Assembly (NCBI GenBank): GCA_015680905.1
Contig: CM027378.1
Coordinates: 108,273,501-108,337,500, forward strand
Direction: 5' to 3'
Origin: Coptis chinensis
Taxonomy: Eukaryota; Streptophyta; Magnoliopsida; Ranunculales; Ranunculaceae
DNA length: 64,000 nucleotides
Every line of letters begins with the position of its first letter. Position 1 is the stretch's first letter. Below the pieces are notes generated by a model. That model did no database searches, had not been told where the DNA came from, and was given only the letters and a program-made list of their open reading frames with translations. Positions 25,611 to 40,156 of the stretch are shown in pieces. The position numbers were made by a program, and so were the translations under genes.

Positions 25611-26185
25611 TTGTTAGTTTCTTCTTTTCATCGTCTCCCCTTAAGCCACCTTCTTTGCCACTCTCAAGTCCCATGCATCTCATGATTTGGAAATTGAATC
25701 AAGACTGGTCGTCTGTTTGAATTAATTCTTTATGGTCCCATACCAGCAAAATGGTCTCCCATGCTTAAAGACTTGGGAAATTAAAATGTAATCTATCCCC
25801 CTACTATGCAAGGCAACATAAATAATCAAACTTGAATAAGATAACTAGAATAAATTCAGCTTTAGGAAATTACTTTGTAAGAAAAAAAATAACAAAAATA
25901 ATAAATACAAGAAAGGGAGTACACATTCATCTTATGGTACTTTGAACAGTTTGAAGTTCCGATGAAAATTTACATTCTAGACCGAAATAAGTAGCCTAAA
26001 TACTTAAATAGAAAATCTAAAAAATCCGATGATACCGATCTTGTATCGTCAGAGTGCATGCGAGCTGTATCTGTCTATCCATTGGAGGTCAAAAAAGACT
26101 TTCGTGAAGTAGAGAAGAATCCGTTAACGCAGCACTAGCACCCCCAAGAGGAAACTCTGGTTACTCTTGAAAGTCATCTTCAACT

Positions 26186-27379
26186 TCAATTCTTCGTTCT
26201 TTCTGACTTGATATCATAACTATACAAGGCAGAAGACTTTGACTCGTCATCTTTCTTGAATAGTATTACTTCACTGTTTCTGAAACTAAGAAGAGGCGTA
26301 AGCATCTTTAGAGGAGGAATATGTATCCTTATGGACGACGACATAATGCTATGTCTTTTCATCCAGCGACTTGTATTCAAATCCTCCAATATAGCAATAT
26401 CCATATATCTAGTTGAGTTTCCGACGTGTAGAACATAACTGACAAAAAGCCACCCAGTTTGAACAAAACATAGTTAACTGCAGTGTCTGCATTGCCATTG
26501 CTGGGCAGATATGTTTTCTGGGATGTTTCATCATTCACATCCATAGAAAGTATGAAACTAGACGAACAAACGTACCAATGCAAAATCTTCCCATTCAATG
26601 AAATTGAATTTTTCCGATTCATGTATAATGTCCCTATCAGTTCCTCAAAAGGCCCTGGAACCCTTCTCCAGTTACTATCAGTTCCTAGTGATAATATCTC
26701 ATACCCAAATGGGCGGTCAACAAAATAGCCATACATGTGTACTACTTTATATACTTTCTTGACAGAATCGAATGCGAGCGAGCATGAGCAAAGCATATGC
26801 GGCGTCTAGATTGCGGCCATTCTGGCATCATATGTGGACATCGTGAAGGACAACTAGGAAGTGTTATATCCTTGCCGGTAACTGGATTAGTGACATGAAG
26901 CACTCCTCTCTTATCCGAATCATTTGACAATAACAAACCATTGCAATTATCCAGTATCGCCATTCCCATGCCCTGAGTAAACTAGTTGCCATCACGGACA
27001 AGTTCACCATCTTTCATCTCCAGTATACATGACTTGGTCTTGGTTATTCTTCCTGTACTGCTTGGGATTCTTAAGATTAACTTCTCAGACAGGACAAGGT
27101 TTAAATGACCAGAAAGATGCTTTGAAATAATATTACACCACGATTTGCATATGAACCTAAACTTGCCTAGTAGTAATTCTGGAGGAGCTTGATTAGTATG
27201 TTGCGGAAAATCTCTTCAGGAAAATAAATATTGGAGTTTCTCCTAGTCAACTCCTGACCGCTCTTCTTGTTCTTGTTTGTCTTTCTGTTTTTCCTTGTGA
27301 GTGTTGGTTCTTGTCTTACTACTGTATCATCAAGGACGGAAAGTAGTTGAAGTTGTGTACTCATCGTCTCCTTCTCCAT
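26186..27379 (-). pseudogene. F-box protein with FBA domain, multiply broken
   Basis: The start MEKETMSTQ at 27379 is followed by a basic stretch and the F-box IYFPEEIFRNILIKL. A one-base deletion near 27186 is needed to continue into PPELLLGKFRFICKSW and the rest of the F-box. A TAG at 26994-26992 interrupts the frame just before MAILDNCNGLLLSN. Two further frameshifts (about 26790-26815 and 26400-26406) separate NPVTGKDITLPSCPS, then LAFDSVKKVYKVVHMYG and WRRVPGPFEE, then LEDLNTSRWMKRHSI. The order is that of F-box associated (FBA type) proteins, SCF ubiquitin-ligase substrate receptors. With three frameshifts and one nonsense codon it cannot make the protein. Its promoter now lies 9 kb away, beyond the transposon at 27383-36435. 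Confidence 0.85.
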
Positions 27380-28929
27380 CCTTATAACAACCCCAATTTT
27401 TAAACAACATAGATTACATTATTTGAATTGAAAATAATTATTATATTATGAAGTCTAGTTTGTTCTAGAATTTGTTTGGTTGTTGTTGATTTTTCAAAAT
27501 GGTTTTTACTTGAATTGTTTGTTAGAACTTGTGTGGGCATTTTAGAATCATTTTTGGGCTTGAAAACATTGTTAAAATGTACCAATTGATATAGGTATGG
27601 ATCTGGGGTGTTTTTAGACCCATTTAAAGCCTATAGGTTAACTTAAACAGACTTAAAACATTGAGAATTTCCTCTATAAAAATCTCATTATTCAAAAACA
27701 AAAACCTAGCCTCCATTAAAAAGAATATTTTTGATTGAAAGAAATAAAAAGAATAGGAAGAAAAAGAAAAGGAATTGGAGAAAAGGAAGCGTATATGGGT
27801 ATTTTTTGCAAATTCAATTTCGGGTGAGTAGTCTAAACCTTATTTTCATATAATTGATTTTTTACTATGGTTTAGATTAGTTGTGTATTTAATTCTCTAT
27901 AATGATATAAAACTTTGAGATCAAAATTATTTGTTTAATCAGAGACTTTCGGTATATTGAGTTACTGACACCAAAAGTTTAGCTTTGATATATAGGTGTT
28001 GTTGTGTTCAGGAGTACTTGTATATGGTAGTGAGTAAACCATGTGTTTATTGATTGATTGGTAGTATTATATATGCCTGCAACTGTTTTGAATGGTGTGA
28101 ACTCATTGGATTCATGTTATAGGGTTTTGATTTTTAGAATTTCAGAACTATTCTTAGTAATTTAAGTATAGAAAATTCGTTTTTGATTTTTTTGATATGA
28201 ATCCAACGCCTGTCTATAGTCTGTCTACTGTAGACACGCATATCTACAATTTTTGTGTTTCGTAAAATTTCATATCTAGTCGTTTTGCATACTGAAATGT
28301 AAGTTGAAGTCCCATTTTGGCCTGACCCAGACTGAGCGGTCTGTAGTAATAAAATCATATAAAATAAAATATTTACTCTTTTGTGCTGATTCCAAAACCA
28401 TTAGAGTCTAGACTTACATAGGTACAACCTCATACTTTGACCCGAGTTCATACTCGTGTTTAAGATTATGAAAACTGATTTCAATATATGATAACTGTTT
28501 GTGCACATATTCTGGATATGTTGCATTGTAGGAAGTGTATAGGACACTATATTTTGTAGATTTGTGGGAAACCAAAACCTAATGAAACCTTAGAGAGTCG
28601 TTTATCCGACGCAGTGAGCCTCACTTAATTTGGATGAGTGACGGAAAATATATGACCTCAACAATTCTATCGTCGAAAATTCTATTAAAATTCGAAAAAA
28701 GGTTTTCTGCATAGGGTTTGATCACAAATTGTATAAAGCTAGGGGGGAGAGTTAGAGTTTTTGTAAAACTTGAAAAGGTGAGTTTTATAAGTCTTCTTTC
28801 TAACTCAATTGGCCTCGTCATATTCCGAGGTCTGTGGTGGTAGATATAACTAGATTTTGGACCCAGGCATACGCCCGGGATATATTAAATATTTTGTGTG
28901 CTGAAAAGGTTTTTACAAAATATTTTACA

Positions 28930-29515
28930 CAAATTTTCGAATCAAAATATATTTTTATTGAAAAGAAACCGAAAGAAGTTAATGAGCAGCGATTATGGTG
29001 CATAAATACTTGAAAATTAAGGGATCAAATTGATATAGCCTCTTCAGTTTGTGGTTTATAATATTAATCCATAATTTTTAAATATAATTATATTAAACTC
29101 GATCTAGCTTGTATAATAGTTTTCTTAGATTTATGGTGATTTAGCGGCAAATTTTCGAATTAGAATATATTTTTATTGAAAATAAACCGAAATACATTAA
29201 TGAGCAAAATTATAACTAAATTTTCAAATAGAATTATCTTAAACTTCGATATTGTATAATAGTTTTATTAGATTTATGGTGATTTAGCGGCAAATTTTAA
29301 ATTACAATATATTTTTATTAAAAAATAAACCGTAATAATGTTAATGAGCAAAGATTATAGTGCATAAGTATTTGGAAACTAAGGGATCAAATTGAGATAG
29401 CATCTTCACTTTGTGGTTTAGGATATTAATTTGTAATTTTTAAATGAAATTATCTTAAACTCGATCTAGCTTGTATAATAGTTTTATTAGATTTATGGTG
29501 ATTTAGCAGTAAATC
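28930..29515. repeat. Three tandem copies of a 145-215-bp unit in the Helitron 3' part
   Basis: Copies start with AAATTTTCGAAT..ATATATTTTTATTGA and end with TTAGATTTATGGTGATTTAGC at about 28930-29145, 29146-29290 and 29291-29505. The middle copy lacks roughly 70 bp (the AAGGGATCAAATTGA..AGCCTCTTCA part). Confidence 0.8.
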
Positions 29516-29989
29516 ATCATCACCTTTTTACATACTAATGTGTACAAATCACTAAAATAGATTGATTGTTTCTATATCCTCAAAAAATACACTACTCCCA
29601 CTTGAAAAGATTTGTCACATGAACGTGTCTTACGAACGGGTGTCGTTATATTAAATTATTCTAAAAAATATTAGCAACTATACATAGCTATGAGATATGA
29701 AAATTATATTAATTACTCATTTAAATTTCTTGCACCACTATGCATAGCTCTATAAAAAGGAAGCATCAAACCTTTATAAAACTCATCGACTTCTTTTTAT
29801 TGTTAGGTTTAACAATAGAAGTTTGATTGAAGTTTTGTGAGAATGCCTAATGTGGCGAAGATAATATTGAAGTTACTTGAATAGCAAGACATTCCCAATC
29901 ACAATAAAAGAATTATGATAAACACTACTTAAAATGTAAAACTATATTTGTCGAGATATTTATTCCTCCTACATATAATACAGATATGT

Positions 29990-32900
29990 TTTAGGGTTAT
30001 TAGTTCAATGCATTTGCATCAAGTTTCTGATTTTCCATTAATTATTCTTTGAGGTTAGTTTAATGTAGTACGTTGCATCTAGTTTCCAAATTCTCATTAA
30101 TTATTCTTTGAGGTTAGTTCAATGCAGTTGCATCAAGTTTCCGATTTCCCGTTAATTATTATTTGAGGTTAGTTCAGTGCAATTTCATCCAGTTTATGAT
30201 TTCCCGTTAGTTATTCATTAAGGTTAATTTAGTACAGTTGTATCCAGTTTTCGATGTTTCGTTAATTAGTATTTGAGATTAGTTCATTGCATTTGCATCC
30301 AGGTTCCAATCTCCTATTAATTACTCTTTGAGGTTAGTTCAATACATCTGCATTCAGTTTCTGATTTCCCGTTAATTGTTTTTCTAGGTTAGTTCGATAA
30401 TTTACAATTTCTATACAGTTTGCATACATGTAAGACTCTATTTTTATAAACTCACTTTCGTTTTGGGTTCCTAATTACTCATGTGAGAAGGCTAAAAAAG
30501 CAGACATTTATGCTTTGAGGTCGAAGACGATCACGGTTACATCCGACTCGATTTCCAGCTTAACTATTTTTAGGCTATTTCAATGCATTTGTATCCAATT
30601 TCTGATTTCCCATTAATTAATATCTGATTTTAGTTTAATGCAGTTGCATCCAGTTTTAGTTTTCCGTTAATTATTCTTTGAGGTTAGTTCAATGCAGTTT
30701 ACATCCAATTTTCGATTTTATGTTAATTGTTCTTTGAGGTTAGTTCAATGCATTTGCATCAAGTTTCCGATTTTCCGTTAATTATTTTTAAAGTTAGTTC
30801 AATGTAGTTACATCAAATTTATAATTTCCCATTAATTATTCATTTAGATTAGTTCAAATAAGACGGTTTCATCCATTTTTCAATGTTTCATTAATTAGTC
30901 TTTGAGATTAGTTCATTGCATTTGAATTTAGTTTCCGATTTCCGTTAATAACTCTTTAAGGTTAGTTCAATGCATTTGCATTTAGTTTCGATTATTTATG
31001 CTTTGAGGTTAGTTCGATGCAATTATATCCGGTTTCTGATTTCCCGTTAATTATTCTTTGAGATTATTTCAATGTATTTGCATTTAGTTTCGATTTCCCA
31101 CCAATTATTCTATGAGGTTAGTTCAATGCGGTTTGCATTCGGTTTTTATTTTCTCAAGCATTATTTTTTTTGTTTAATTCAATGCATTTGAATTGCATCC
31201 AGTTTCCGGTTTCCCATTAATTATTATATGAGGTTTGTTTGATGTATTTGCATACCATTTTTGATTTCCCGTTAATTATTTTTAAGGGATTTGCATCCAA
31301 TTTCTAATTTCCCGTTATCTCTTATCTGACGTCAGTTTAATGCAATTGCACCCAGTTTCCGATTTCTAGTTAATTACTTTTTGAGTTTAGTTTATTGCAT
31401 TTGCATAAAGTTTCCGATTTCCCGTTAATCACTTTTTGAGCTCTATTATGTATTTGAATCCAGTTTCCGATTTTCTTTTAATTATTCAATGTGGTGTGTA
31501 ATACCAACTTCTACTGATTCATATGTAGTGTCTTTGCAAACATGACATAAAAAGTAAATTATGTTTGATTTACTATGTGGGATCATCGAAGATTATCCAG
31601 TTCCCGATTTCCCATTAATTATTATTTAAATTATGCATGACTCACTATGTGAAATATTCAAAGATTATTTATGAACGGGTGTTCTCACTATGTGGAATAT
31701 TCAAAAATTATCTATGAATGGGTGTTGTTATATTAATTATTCTGAAAAATATTTGCAAATATGCATAACTATTATATATTTATATTATATTAATCACTCA
31801 ATCAAATTTCTTATAACATTAAAACCTCACTCTCCATTAAAAAAAATAACTCACATTTGATAAAACCCTTCAACTTTATTTTGTTGTTTAATAATAGAAG
31901 TTTAATTGAAGTTTTGTGAGATTGCCTAATAAGGTGAAGTTCATATATATTGAAGCTACTTGAATAGCAAGGAGTTTCCAATCATACGGAAAGAGATAAG
32001 ATAAACACCATTTTAAATGCAAAACTATACTTATCGAGATAATACCACAATATAACCCAACTATGTTTTGAGGTTAGTTCAATGCATTTGCATTTAGTTT
32101 CTGATTTTTCGTTATTTATATTTTGAGGTTAGTTCAATGCAGTTGCATCCAATTTTCAATTCCCGTTATTTATTTTTTGAGATCAGTTCAATGTAGTTGC
32201 ATCCAGTTTCTGATTTCTTATTAATTATTCTTTTTTATTAGTTCAATACATTTGCATCCAATTTCCAATTTCCTGTTAATTGTTATTTGAGGTCAGTTCA
32301 ATGCATTTGCATCCAGTTTCTGATTTCTCATTAATTATTTCGTGAGATTAGTTTAATGCATTTTCATCCAGTTTCTGATTTCTCGCTTATTATTTGATAA
32401 AATTGCATTTGCATCTAGTTTCCGATTTCCCGTTAATTATTGTTTGAGGTTAGTTCAATGAATTTGCATCCAGTTTTCGATTTCCCGTTAATTATTTCTT
32501 GAGGTTAGTTCAATGCATTTGCATCCAGTTTATTTTTTTGAGATTAGTTGGTCTGCTTGCATCCGGTTTTCGATTTCCGTTAATTAATTTTTAAGATTAG
32601 TTCCACGCATTTGTATCATGTTTCTAATTTATAATTAATTTTTCTTTGAGGTTAGTTCAATGCATTTGCATCCAGTTTCCGATTTCCCGTTAATTTAATC
32701 TTTGAGGGTTAGCTCAATGCATTTACATCCAGCTTCGATTTTTTCGACAATTATTTTTTTTTATGTTAGTTTGATGTATTTGTATCAAAGTTTTGATTTT
32801 CCGTTAATTATTCTTTGAGGTTAGTTTAATGCAGTTGTATCCATATTCTAATTTTCTATATATTACTTTTTAAGATTAGTTTAATACTTGCATTTGCATC

Positions 32901-33010
32901 CAGTTTCCGATTTTCTGTTAAATATTATTTGAGGTTATAGTTTGATGCATTTGCATCCAGTTTTCGGTTCCCCATTAATTGTTTTTTTACGTTAGTTTCA
33001 TTCAGTATTA
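29990..33010. repeat. Degenerate ~55-bp minisatellite inside the Helitron
   Basis: The unit reads roughly GAGGTTAGTTCAATGCATTTG then CATCCAGTTTCCGATTTCCC then GTTAATTATTCTTT, repeated dozens of times with many substitutions and small indels. Gaps without the unit lie at about 30420-30560 and 31490-32050. A larger duplication overlies this: the stretch GAAGTTTGATTGAAGTTTTG..CTTATCGAGATA occurs at ~29815-29960 and ~31900-32040, each time leading into an array. So a block of leader plus minisatellite was itself duplicated. Confidence 0.9.
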
Positions 33011-34327
33011 TATATTTTTTAAAATATTTGTCATTATTGCTTTGCCGTTATTTTTTTTTTTAAATTTTCTATTATATATTTTGTGATGTTATTTTTTGTA
33101 TAATTGTTTTTAAGTATGTTTTGAGGCCGTGTTAAGGATATATTCAAAATAAATCGGTGCTTTATTAAAATTGTATGATTTGTAATAGGAAATTAGTTTC
33201 TACAAATCACATATTTTTAGCAATTTTTTTATATGATCAAATATATAAGAATTGGAACACTAAAAATGTTTGATTCGTAACCTTTTATAAATCACCTATT
33301 TTTTTAGCAATTTTGTTTATCTTATCAAATATATAAGAAGTGGAAATACACTCCAACTCTTCAAATATAAGAATTAGAAATACACTAAAACTCTCCAAAG
33401 AGGTTCTATGTACGTGAAATTGTAGGCTATTAGAAAAGATTATCTTTCATATTAGAGTTTCACATAAGAGAGAAAAAAAAACTAACTCTCATATTAGAGT
33501 GCCACATAGGAGAGAGAAAATCTTCTATTAGAGGTCTCTGCTTTAGTATATAGATAGTAGATGCCTGGAAGTTTGGTTGATAGAAAACAGTGCGTCAAAA
33601 ATCAATTTTTGCGCACTGTGTTCAAGTCCAGTTTTAAAATAGTTAGGTTGAGAGTTAGTATTTTTATAAAACATAAAAGAGTAAGATCTGGAAGTCTTCT
33701 TTCTATTCCAATTGGCCTCATCGTATTCGAAGTACCGTGGAATTAATTATGACGTTTGGAAGTTTGACTGGCAGAAAACAGTGCGTCAGAAATCAGTTTC
33801 TTCGCACTGTGTTCGAGCCTAGTTTTGGCACATTTAGAATGAGATTGGATATTTTTGTAAAACATAAGAAAGTAATTTATGTGTGTCATATTTTCAACAC
33901 AAAAAGCCTCGATGCATTTGGATACCTTTGGAAAGAGTTGTGCCATTCGGAAGATAGTCCGTCAGAAATCTAGTTTGCTGAATATTAGGATTTTTACCGT
34001 TTTCGACCTAAGTTTTCTTCTAGATGGGCTGAGGTTGGGACTTCGAGTTCTACATGAAAAAGCATATCTACAATACCTTAGTTTATAAATAATTAAGTTA
34101 CATGTCATTTGGATGAATGTAGGAAAAACTATAGCATTGACTATGTGGCTGATAAGGTTCAATCAGGAATAACGTATTAGTTAAATGTCTTGTGAATACA
34201 TTTTAAACAACCACAATCACGTACAACATTAAGTACTAACATTGTACACATATAGTTATCACAATAACTAATAACTAATATATAATATATAATATAGTAT
34301 AGTGTAGTGGCTGCACTTTTGCTCAAA

Positions 34328-34378
34328 GCTGCCTACGTATCCAAATCTTTCAAGATTGGAATCAAGCCTTCGTAGTTC
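34328..34378. repeat. Imperfect hairpin in the foldback loop
   Basis: GCCTACG and CGTAG frame an inner palindrome AATCTTTCAAGATT. The stretch CTGCCTACGTATCC..GGAATCAAGCC..CGTAGTTC resembles a short motif that recurs in plant intergenic DNA; that recollection is unverified. Confidence 0.4.
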
Positions 34379-36481
34379 TTATCAGCCACATAGTCAATGC
34401 TATAGTTTTTCCTACATTCATCCAAATGATATGTAACTTAATTATTTATAAACTAAGGTATGTAGATATACTTTTTCATGTAGAACTCAAAGTCCCAACC
34501 TCAGCCCATCTAGAAGAAAACTTAGGTCGAAAACGGTAAAAATTCTAATATTCAGCAAACTAGATTTCTAACGGACTATCTTCCGAATGACACAACTCTT
34601 TCCACAGGTATCCAAACGCATCGAGGCTTTTTGTGTTGAAAATTTGACACACAGAACTTACTTTCTTATGTTTTACAAAAATACCCAATCTCATTCTAAA
34701 TGTGCTAAAACTATGCTCGAACACAATGCGAAGAAACTGATTTCTGACACACTGTTTTCTACCAGTCAAACTTCCAAACGTCATAATTAATTCCACAGGA
34801 CTTCAAATGCGATGAGGCAAATTGGAATAGAAAGCAGACTTCCAGATCTTACTCTTTTATGTTTTATAAAAATACTAACTCTCAACCTAATTATTTTAAA
34901 ACTGGACTTGAACACAGTGCGCAGAAACTGATTTCTGATGCACTGTTTTCTGTCAACCAAACTTCCAGGCATTATATCTACCACCACAAACCTCGGAATA
35001 TGACGAGGCCAATTGAGTTAGAAAGAAGACTTATAAAACTCACCTTTTAATGTTTTACAAAAACTCTAACTCTCCTCCCTAGCTTTATGCAATTTGTGAT
35101 CAAACCCTATGCAGAAAACTATTTTCTGACGAATAGAATTTCTGACGCATAGAATTTTCAAGGTCATATATTTTCCGGCACTCATCCAAATTAAGTGAGG
35201 CTCACTGCGTCGGATAAACGACTCTCTAAGGTTTCATTAGGTTTTGGTTTCCCACAAATCTACAAAATATAGTGTCCTATACACTTCCTACAATGCAACA
35301 TATTCATAATATGTGCACAAACAGTTATCATATATTGAAGTCAGTTTTCATAATCTTAAACATGAGTATGAACTCAAGTCAAAGTATGAGGTTGTACCTC
35401 TGTAAGTCTAGACTCTAATGGTTTTGGAATCAACACAAAAGAGTAAATATTTTATTTTATATGATTGTATTACTGCAGACTGCTTTCGCTTTCAGTTTCC
35501 AGCATCGACTTCAACTTATATTTCAGTATGCAAAACGACTAGATATGAAATTTTACAAAACACGAAAGTTGTAGATATGCGTGTCTACAGTAGATAGGCA
35601 TTGGATTCATATCAAAAAGATCAAAAACGATTTTCTATGCTTAAATTACTAAGAATAGTTCTGAAATTCTGAAAATCAAAACCTTATAACATGAATCCAA
35701 TGACTTCACATCATTCAAAACAGTTGCAGGCATATATAATACTACCAATCAATCAATAAACACATGGTTTACTCACTACCATATACAAGTACTCTGAACA
35801 CAACAACACCTATATATCAAAGCTAAATTTTTTGTGCCAGTAACTCAATATATCGAAAGTCTCTGATTAAACAAATAATTTCGATCTCAAAGTTCTATAT
35901 TATTATAGAGAATTAAATACACAACTAATATAAACCATAGTAATAAATCAATTATATGAAAATAAGGTTTAGACTACTCACCCGAAATTGAATTTGCAAA
36001 AGAATACCCATATATGCTTCCTTTTCTCCAATTCATTTTCTTTTTATTCCCCTTCTTTTTATTTCTTTCAATCAAAAAATTCTTTTTAATGGAGGTTAGG
36101 GTTTTGTTTTTGAATAATGAGATTTTTACAGAGAAAATTCGCAGGTATTGTTTATTCAATGTTTTAAGTATGTTTAAATTAACTTATGGGCCTCAAATGG
36201 GTCTAAAAACACCTCAGGTCCATACCTATATCAATGGGTACATTTTAACAATGTTTTCAAGCCCAAAAATGATTCTAAATACCCACACAAGTTCTAACAA
36301 ACAATTAAGTAAAAACCATTTTGAAAAATCAACAACAACCAAACAAATTCTAAAACAAGTTAGACTTCATAATATAATAATTATTTTCAATTCAAATAAT
36401 GTAATCTATGTTGTTTAAAAATTGGGATTGTTATAATCCTCCTAAAATTTCGTAAGGAGCTCTCATCCTCCAGAGAAACCC

Positions 36482-36489
36482 TATTTATA
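36482..36489 (-). promoter_or_regulatory. Orphaned TATA box of the F-box pseudogene
   Basis: On the minus strand TATAAATA is followed about 40 bp later by the foldback element, whose other side abuts the F-box ATG. Removing the element would put the TATA box about 60 bp before the ATG, a normal plant spacing. No other gene starts here on this strand. Confidence 0.6.
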
Positions 36490-37266
36490 TTGGCTAAATC
36501 TATGGTGCGCAGGTCGTATGGTATGCTATCAAATCTGGGCCACTCATACCAAGGGGTGCGTGTGTATTGCATGGCAAAAATACTAATCCAAAGGCCCACA
36601 TTACCTGCGCACCATACATCTCGCGCACTGAATACATGCTCATTTATATTTAGTAGAGGTTTTGTTGGTAACCAAACTTTTGGACTTTTAGGATTTCCTT
36701 TGGAGAAAGAATTAGAATTGAATGAGTACGGTCAAATCTGGCAATTCTAAAGGACTTGAATGACCAAATTAGCAAGATGGAAAATTACTAATCTAAACAC
36801 GTCTAAACTACTTGATTGGCGAAACAGAATGTATCCCAAACTCTGAACTCAACCAGAAGATATAATCTTTCTGAAGTTCACAACTCTGAAGGACCATTGA
36901 TGATTAGAGAAAAATACCCTGAACTATCCAGAGGTCGAATTCATGAAAATTCACGAATTTGGATATCCGAAAAAAATTGGTCTGGCATTTCCATAGACAC
37001 AAACATCAAAAAATCTGTTGAGGGCTGTTATAGTGTTATTCTGTCAATTGTTAATCTCTGGGAAATAAATAAGTACGAAGAAAGAATTGAGAGGTAGTGG
37101 TTATAGTATAATTCGTAACTTCTGTACATGCTAAACCGAGGACTTTTCATTATCAACAAATATGTGTCCATTGGGAATCTTTAAAATGCAGACGCCAATC
37201 AAAACGTTGATGAGTATACAAATGTGTGACAGATTCTCATTTGAGCAACTGAATATGGAAGAATAT

Positions 37267-38154
37267 CTAATGGGTGAAGACATTGAGGATAGCGACTCGG
37301 ATGTGGATTAATTGCTTAAAGAGGCCCTCTAGTCCAGTCTCAAGATCTTTAACCCTGGTTTCCAATGCTTCCAGTCCTTTCTGTGCATTTTGAATAGAGT
37401 CTGTGTCGCCACTTTTGCTTGTAATGTGCTTGGGAGAGGGAGCGTAAGGCCGCATCCTAGGCACACTCTAGTTCACCAATATCCTTATGTGTACCCTCAC
37501 ATGCTACTTGCCCATTGTGGATTAACTTGGAAATCAAAGACCATTTTGTGGATTTTGGCTTTGGGGAGGATATCAAAGACAAGCGGGACTTGAAGAAGGA
37601 AATTGAGAGTTCCATTGCTTCTCTTAGCACTCTAATCACCAGCTCTAGATGGTGATCTTGAATATTTAACACTGGTACACTTAGGTTACTCGTTCTCTTA
37701 AGGCCTAGAAGGCTCTTATTGATCGATGTTCTTGTTTAGCTTTTTGTAAAGCATACATAAGAATTTAGTTTTTCTTCCTTGACCATCTTACCACCTCTTC
37801 TACGAAGAGAGGTTTTAAGGTCTTCTGCTTAATCTTTCATCTGCGACCAGAAATCCTTTGTGGTGCTACACACATCCAATTGTCTTACGGACTCATTGAG
37901 CACATCTTCTATCCATTTTTCACAGAAATGGCCTGAGATACTTCGCTGGGTAAGTGGCAATTGAAGAAGATCCCCTACACAATTGTACAACACTAGAAGA
38001 CCACTCAAACGCCGCATCCATTGTTTCTGCATTTATTGTTGCGGGTAACTCTGAAGTTTTTAGCTTGTTCAAAACTTCTTCAATCTCGAGTGTTGGTGTG
38101 GGATCTGGTGGGCATACTAATGGAGCGAACATGGCAATGAGTTTCAGGGAATAG
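37267..38154 (-). pseudogene. DUF241 (BPS1-like) gene, frameshifted
   Basis: Four pieces in different frames line up along the intact DUF241 protein at 39236-40156. They are MFAPLVCPPDPTP..EEVLNKLKT (38132), LVLYNCVGDLLQLPLTQ and EKWIEDVLNESVRQLDVCS (38032), LELVIRVLREAMELSISFF (37672), and GLEALETRVKDLETGLEGLF with a C-terminal LIHIRVAILNVFTH (37464). At least three frameshifts are needed to join them. The upstream flank (38350-38760) is shared with the relic at 24396-25080. Confidence 0.8.
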
Positions 38155-39235: not shown

Positions 39236-40156
39236 CTAGTGATTGAGGCCGTTAAGCAGTGAGACTCTTGTTTGGATTAGGCGCCGGTACAAGCACTCCA
39301 ATCCATCCTCAAGTCCTTCAATGCTTAGTTCCAAGGTCTTTAATCGTTTCTGTGCTATTTGCACCTTCTCCACCTCTGCGGCTGAGCTTGAGTTCTGTCC
39401 ACAGAGTGCATGGACTCCAATATCGACACTCTCCACCTCATTTACATTTTCCTGCTCTCTCCGAGATACTACTGGTTTTTTCTTCATCACCTTTGACACC
39501 AATGACCAACCAACCAGCTTCCTCTTTGGCTCTGTGACAGACAAAAATGAAAGGAGGTTCTGAAAGATGGAGATTGTGACAGTGCTTACTTCCCTTAGAA
39601 CTCTAACCACTATTGCTAGGTGGTGGTTTTGCTCCAAGATACTAGATCCATTATTTTCATTCAGCTTCTTCAGTACTGCAAGGCCTTTGGTGATGTCCTT
39701 CTTCATTTTTTTCCTCAAGCATATATACGCACTGCTCTGTTTTTCCATGCTCGACTCTTCACCCCTTTTTCTACGCAGAGCTGACTGAAGATCTTGTATT
39801 CCTCCCTTCATTGTCAGCAACATGTCCCTTGCTGTGCCACATACGTCTAATAGGCTGACTGACTCGTCCAAGGCTTCTTCCACCGACTTCTCATGTTGAT
39901 GATGGACAAGTACTTGCTGGGTGAGTGGCAAGTGGATAAAATCCTCGACGCACTTGTACAACTCCGCAAGGCCAACCAAGGCCATTTGAATTGTGTTGGC
40001 AATCGAAGCTGAAATAGCTGTTGTTGATGATATCTCCCAAGTCTTGGTTCTGTTCAAGTACTCTTCTATTTTTAGTGCAATGGGATGTGATCTAGTGGGC
40101 AAGCTAACTGACCGAACACAGTAACGGTTATTGGGCACTGCCAAAGAGCCAGCCAT
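39236..40156 (-). CDS. DUF241 (BPS1-like) protein, single exon
   Basis: An intact intronless frame of 306 residues, the usual form and size for this plant-specific family. It starts MAGSLAVPNNRYCVRSVSLP followed by TRSHPIALKIEEYLN, the conserved N-terminal RSxSLPxRxHP pattern. The middle has LAELYKCVEDFIHLPLTQQ and SLLDVCGTARDMLLTMKGGI, then LRREVS-like helices. It ends with a predicted coiled coil (LKTLELSIEGLEDGLECLYR) and the typical LIQTRVSLLNGLNH. No signal peptide or clear membrane span is seen. The biochemical role of DUF241 proteins is unknown; BPS1 itself suppresses a root-derived mobile signal. It is the only intact member of the four copies in this window. Confidence 0.9.
   Translation of the reverse strand: MAGSLAVPNNRYCVRSVSLPTRSHPIALKIEEYLNRTKTWEISSTTAISASIANTIQMALVGLAELYKCVEDFIHLPLTQQVLVHHQHEKSVEEALDESVSLLDVCGTARDMLLTMKGGIQDLQSALRRKRGEESSMEKQSSAYICLRKKMKKDITKGLAVLKKLNENNGSSILEQNHHLAIVVRVLREVSTVTISIFQNLLSFLSVTEPKRKLVGWSLVSKVMKKKPVVSRREQENVNEVESVDIGVHALCGQNSSSAAEVEKVQIAQKRLKTLELSIEGLEDGLECLYRRLIQTRVSLLNGLNH

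Follow-up and report, generated by a model that had tools for sequence, protein, structure and literature searches.

The stretch analysed here, referred to as the window, comprises 64,000 bp of the 936-Mb genome of Coptis chinensis (GenBank assembly GCA_015680905.1, contig CM027378.1; C2:108273501-108337500 in the coordinates used below). It contains a decayed F-box gene on the minus strand, whose start codon is separated from a plausible former promoter by a set of nested transposons (Table 1). A first-pass annotation, made from the sequence alone, had described these as a Helitron within a foldback transposon, inserted between the TATA box and the ATG of the gene. The outline of this description holds: an insert of 9,053 bp (27383-36435) lies between two direct copies of ATCCT, matching the predicted element of about 9.05 kb, and the left ATCCT does overlap the start codon (27377-27379). 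The identity of the element that hosts the Helitron requires revision, as it is probably a palindrome in which two 5' (U3-side) pieces from a single long terminal repeat (LTR)-like family meet at their truncated inner ends. We regard the locus as a case of ordinary nested transposons with two unusual points, namely a palindrome of LTR pieces whose target duplication is clean and which was not seen in the other scored copies, and a segmental duplicate that allows later events to be ordered.

Apart from the Helitron, the insert consists of two 5' LTR pieces of 2,062 and 2,279 bp; their inner ends abut at the trinucleotide AAG, and TATAAC stands at both outer ends of the palindrome. The inverted arms (27383-28849 plus 33562-34156, and 34378-36435) are 92.6% identical in BLAST and have a Kimura two-parameter (K2P) distance of 5.9% over aligned sites, while the 3' half of the LTR has no match within the window. 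We searched the genome with the centre of the palindrome and scored 40 of 1,446 first-look candidates. Among these 40, only the window and a segmental duplicate of it, copy A, match all 336 centre bases across the junction. The other 38 matches set in only at base 54 or 55, the point at which left arm and loop join, and are without the left arm at the junction; a family copy on C5, for instance, continues into different sequence there. Likewise, stretches of 121-201 bases covering the predicted mirror position showed no arm end in any of six other family copies. Inverted matches to bases 1-57, considered as a sign of palindromy in all copies, merely re-match the right arm and were dropped, and two inverted pairs of TATAAC ends (C1:9926272/9933248 and C2:91389310/91407392) were rejected, as their flanks do not match. 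In trees of seven or eight rows, the two arms group as sisters (support 94/91 and 93/92), which, together with their K2P distance, favours one source for both arms without proving it.

The family to which the arms belong appears to consist of LTRs, perhaps mostly solo ones. A copy on C3 (C3:108641267-108645214) comprises 3,948 bp with the ends TATAACAACCCC...GGAGTGTGACA and is flanked by GGTTA on both sides, a 5-bp duplication; the unit is asymmetric and solo-LTR-like, starting with TATAAC and ending with GTGACA. This true other end emerged at one of the six inspected mirror positions. Pattern searches that presumed TATAAC at both sides detected no duplication at a C4 copy or at the C3 copy, in the latter case because its real other end differs. 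The 24-base TATAAC end has 163 exact copies in the genome, and all 100 listed ones start with TA, though the search pattern permitted TG. Furthermore, a relative at C2:108266660-108269257, which is without the 5' part of the arms, lies between copia domains and ends in GGGGTGTGACA. As for the superfamily, the arm family may belong to Ty3/gypsy.

The order of events can be read from copy A (C2:108113501-108143488), which matches window positions 3493-34792 in successive blocks (>300 bp) of 96-99.7% identity. Blocks of 84-95% identity extend left as far as the window edge, so the duplication must start left of the window. On the other side, homology stops at 34792, within the right palindrome piece, and no further block of >300 bp and 90% identity was found when 160 kb around copy A were compared with the window. 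Because the end of the duplicated segment falls inside the right piece, copy A carries the F-box gene and the left piece without the promoter side. The DNA right of copy A (C2:108143489 onward) recurs at C2:107988686 and C2:107866337 with 96% identity; this part of C2 is therefore a cluster of segmental duplications. A query spanning the copy A breakpoint extends just 12 bases past that point and, with gaps, can be aligned to its last base in several family copies, so that it carries little weight; the two places just named lie outside the 40 loci scored for this query. Between the window and copy A, the F-box stretch shows 4 substitutions in 1,466 sites and 5 insertions or deletions (indels; K2P 0.27%), and the divergence of six further blocks ranges from 0.26 to 2.9%. 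The highest of these values is inflated, as is a divergence of 5.0% for the right piece, because apparent clusters of differences near 28312, 28687 and 34521 are really small indels plus misalignment.

Copy A has the insertion but no Helitron, with an exact 40-base empty joint at the site, which bears out the proposed nesting and the proposed order of the two insertions. The Helitron sits between A and T without a target duplication. On the minus strand it reads TCTACT...ATCTAG, with the 5' TC and 3' CTRR termini of such elements, and a 7-bp hairpin stem (-13.4 kcal/mol) lies just before its 3' end. Its body is made of 55-bp repeats, and no open reading frame (ORF) of 60 amino acids lies wholly within 29004-33560. 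Related sequence, 81-86% identical in its longest pieces, occurs about 1 kb past the end of copy A.

The F-box domain (PF00646) scores above the Pfam cutoff of 20.5 bits in copy A (24.2 bits) and in a paralogue at C7:17254534 (26.4 bits). The 70-residue N-terminal ORF of the window gives no Pfam match; a frameshift cuts the ORF there. A further in-frame ATG, 15 nt inside the gene, aligns nearer to where the C7 paralogue starts. We polarised the lesions by copy A, using the C7 paralogue (67% identity) as the outside reference, and count four frameshifts (-1, +14, +8 and +5) and one stop, where three frameshifts and one stop had been annotated. By parsimony, the insertion, the TAG stop and the +8 frameshift would be older than the duplication, whereas the Helitron and the -1, +14 and +5 frameshifts, found in the window copy only, would be younger; copy A alone carries a +1 frameshift near 26556. 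The annotation had also expected the gene to decay after it was separated from its promoter. This is supported in part, as three frameshifts do postdate the insertion. The order of the stop and the +8 frameshift relative to the insertion cannot be set, as both are common to copy A. Furthermore, the C7 paralogue is itself broken, by one frameshift and one stop, and no arm sequence was found within 30 kb around it; decay in this gene family therefore need not involve the insertion. Two further observations concern the lesions themselves. By eye, the window-only +14 change is a 6-bp repeat, TGCGGC, surrounding 8 new bases, and resembles the scar of a repair event or the footprint of an excision. 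Moreover, the five indels between the two recent duplicates outnumber the four substitutions in the F-box region (25893-27377), an odd ratio for 1.5 kb.

Table 1. Features of the F-box locus, in window coordinates.
Feature	Position	Strand	Remarks
F-box pseudogene	26118-27379	-	98% to copy A, 67% to C7:17254534; 3' limit approximate
+5 frameshift near C terminus	26188-26192	-	window only
+8 frameshift	26393-26400	-	common to copy A, absent from C7
+14 frameshift	26798-26817	-	window only; placement ambiguous, 26798-26811 or 26804-26817
TAG stop	26982-26984	-	common to copy A; AAG in C7 paralogue
-1 frameshift, F-box coding part	27185-27186	-	window only
Left target-site duplication ATCCT	27378-27382		overlaps ATG
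Left LTR-like piece, outer part	27383-28849	+	TATAAC end faces outward
Non-autonomous Helitron, 4,712 bp	28850-33561	-	A^T insertion with TC...CTAG ends; internal repeats of 55 bp; copy A has the exact empty site
Left LTR-like piece, inner part	33562-34156	+	
Palindrome junction, 3-bp microhomology AAG	34154-34156		from comparison with C5 family copy and right arm
Right LTR-like piece of 2,279 bp, made up of right arm and loop (34157-34377)	34157-36435	-	TATAAC end outward
Right target-site duplication ATCCT	36436-36440		
Displaced putative core promoter/5' untranslated region, with TATAAATA at 36482-36489	36441-36491	-	
Gene-side 9-bp target-site duplication ATTTATATT of upstream MITE	36483-36491		covers 7 of 8 TATA-motif bases
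MITE (miniature inverted-repeat transposable element), 150 bp	36492-36641		9-bp A/T-rich target duplications
Far copy of MITE target-site duplication	36642-36650		

The displaced flank may once have been the promoter of the F-box gene. TATAAATA is indeed present on the minus strand where a TATA box had been annotated, and if the flanks are joined, its T lies 52 nt from the ATG, a normal spacing, if not quite the predicted 60 bp or so. An upstream ATG in another frame follows 23 nt past this T in the joined flanks. We consider it plausible that 36441-36491 was formerly the F-box promoter. The difficulty is that seven of the eight bases of the motif are within the target duplication of the neighbouring MITE, which at this site is an exact 9-bp duplication. 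Of 19 other copies of the element, 17 have 9-bp duplications (15 exact, 2 with one mismatch), which are mostly A/T; in the remaining two, the script found no duplication. Since the MITE chooses A/T targets, the weight of the TATA motif is lowered, and it is somewhat improbable, yet a reading to be reckoned with, that the region never was an F-box promoter and that the TATA-like 9-mer is just an A/T-rich target site. A 60-bp stretch has a 5-7% probability of containing a TATAWAWR sequence by chance, and the upstream region of the C7 paralogue is unlike 36441-36491: it aligns no better than shuffled sequence (best local score of 21; the 95th percentile of 300 shuffles was 23). This result counts against a former promoter, as does the fact that no orthologue stands behind it. 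When 36442-37300 was used as a query and 40 of 731 candidates were scored, all matches other than the locus itself fell within the MITE part. On the other hand, the site must predate the MITE and may be a genuine TATA box into which the MITE inserted, the exact TATAAATA is expected by chance in just 0.4-0.8% of 60-bp stretches, and the spacing becomes normal once the flanks are rejoined. The reading that the region never was a promoter is independent of the readings of the insert given below, and the probabilities of the several readings need not add to one.

The MITE is probably of the Mutator-like element (MULE) type, judging by the length of its duplication. Several target duplications of its family are TATA-like. 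Further upstream, a BPS1-family gene (PF03087, 288.7 bits) lies on the minus strand in the region of 39236-40156 and 37267-38132, and the shorter ORFs beside it resemble a broken relative by eye.

Turning to the origin of the palindrome, the integration of a pre-existing structure is the best explanation for the insert, because its two outward TATAAC ends share a direct 5-bp flank. In such a scenario, two truncated, U3-ended complementary DNA (cDNA) fragments would have been joined through the 3-bp microhomology AAG, and the retrotransposon integrase, presented with a product in which both outer ends are U3, would have integrated it, creating the 5-bp target duplication exactly at the border between the 5' untranslated region and the ATG of the F-box gene. 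After the insertion, a segment that starts left of the window and extends to about 34792 was duplicated, its end falling inside the right piece, to yield copy A; later, the window copy acquired the Helitron and three frameshifts, and copy A one frameshift. Such joining of cDNA fragments, followed by their integration as a two-ended element with a clean duplication, would constitute a one-off LTR route to a foldback structure, and the palindrome would later have come to mark one end of the duplicated segment, where it may have served as the breakpoint. We put this more specific proposal forward tentatively, as falling somewhat short of an even chance. We found no precedent for an LTR palindrome of the U3-U3 type flanked by a target duplication in the literature searched by title and the start of the abstract, which is a weak sign of novelty.

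Several points weigh against the U3-U3 palindrome and its assignment to LTRs. A palindrome with another junction would escape a search of the kind described, in which 40 of the 1,446 candidates were scored, and at the six mirror positions indels could push an arm end out of view. The C3 copy is the sole family member read at both ends, and while the 3' end of the family is CA, its 5' end is TA rather than TG. The assignment to LTRs draws on these ends, on the duplication and on the GGGGTGTGACA-ending relative, not on an adjacent polymerase. The sisterhood of the arms has moderate support and a short stem (0.0048 and 0.0047), and the four or five family copies in the tree are those that best match the right end. 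Finally, the integration of a U3-U3 palindrome is inferred and not demonstrated.

It could also be imagined that two LTRs inserted independently and in opposite orientation near the F-box start, that a deletion then joined them at AAG, and that the match of the two ATCCT copies is coincidental. The abundance of the family, with its 163 exact copies of the 24-base end, would have provided for such insertions, microhomology at a junction is typical of end joining, and the sister support for the arms is just 93-94%. Yet this course of events requires a 1-in-1024 coincidence of the 5-bp flanks and two insertions of the same family close together, and it leaves aside that rejoining the flanks gives a plausible distance between TATA and ATG; we consider it unlikely. 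The foldback transposon of the first-pass annotation, a true family of the MULE/FARE type, has the long inverted arms around a short loop, the direct flanking duplication and the many genomic copies of the arm sequence in its favour, but is very improbable given that 38 of the 40 scored loop matches stop at a palindrome junction seen only here and in the duplicate, that each arm corresponds to half of an LTR-like unit whose sole copy read at both ends is asymmetric and 3,948 bp long, that the target duplication comprises 5 bp and not 9 both here and in the C3 copy, and that in none of the six copies inspected does an arm end appear where the mirror position is predicted.

With the palindrome of two LTR halves as the preferred interpretation, the locus presents an ordered stack of events at the start of a gene (LTR palindrome, segmental duplication, Helitron and frameshifts) and offers an internal control for the later ones. 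Moreover, it illustrates that a structure with the look of a classic foldback transposon can consist of two LTR halves joined as a palindrome, which annotation could easily misfile. Should the cDNA route be true, U3-U3 palindromes would be integrase substrates in plants.

Among known systems, the Helitron conforms to the non-autonomous plant Helitrons in its TC...CTAG termini, its 3' hairpin and its insertion between A and T without a duplication, and has nothing that sets it apart; its body is made of 55-bp repeats. The insert as a whole resembles the foldback MULEs of plants, FARE and MuTAnT, in its long inverted palindromic arms and flanking target duplication. A passage in PMC4486113 describes MuTAnT as favouring A/T-rich targets. 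The locus differs from these elements in its 5-bp instead of 9-nt duplication, in a junction that is absent from the 38 other scored copies and in arms that derive from an asymmetric LTR-like unit. A further likeness is to the solo LTRs of plant Ty3/gypsy elements, with which the arm family shares the 5-bp target duplication, the 3' GTGACA, the single C3 unit of about 3.95 kb and the relative ending in GGGGTGTGACA. It departs from them in its 5' end, TA instead of TG; non-canonical LTR ends are reported in PMC5659011. Furthermore, at this locus two 5' halves point outward and the 3' end is absent.

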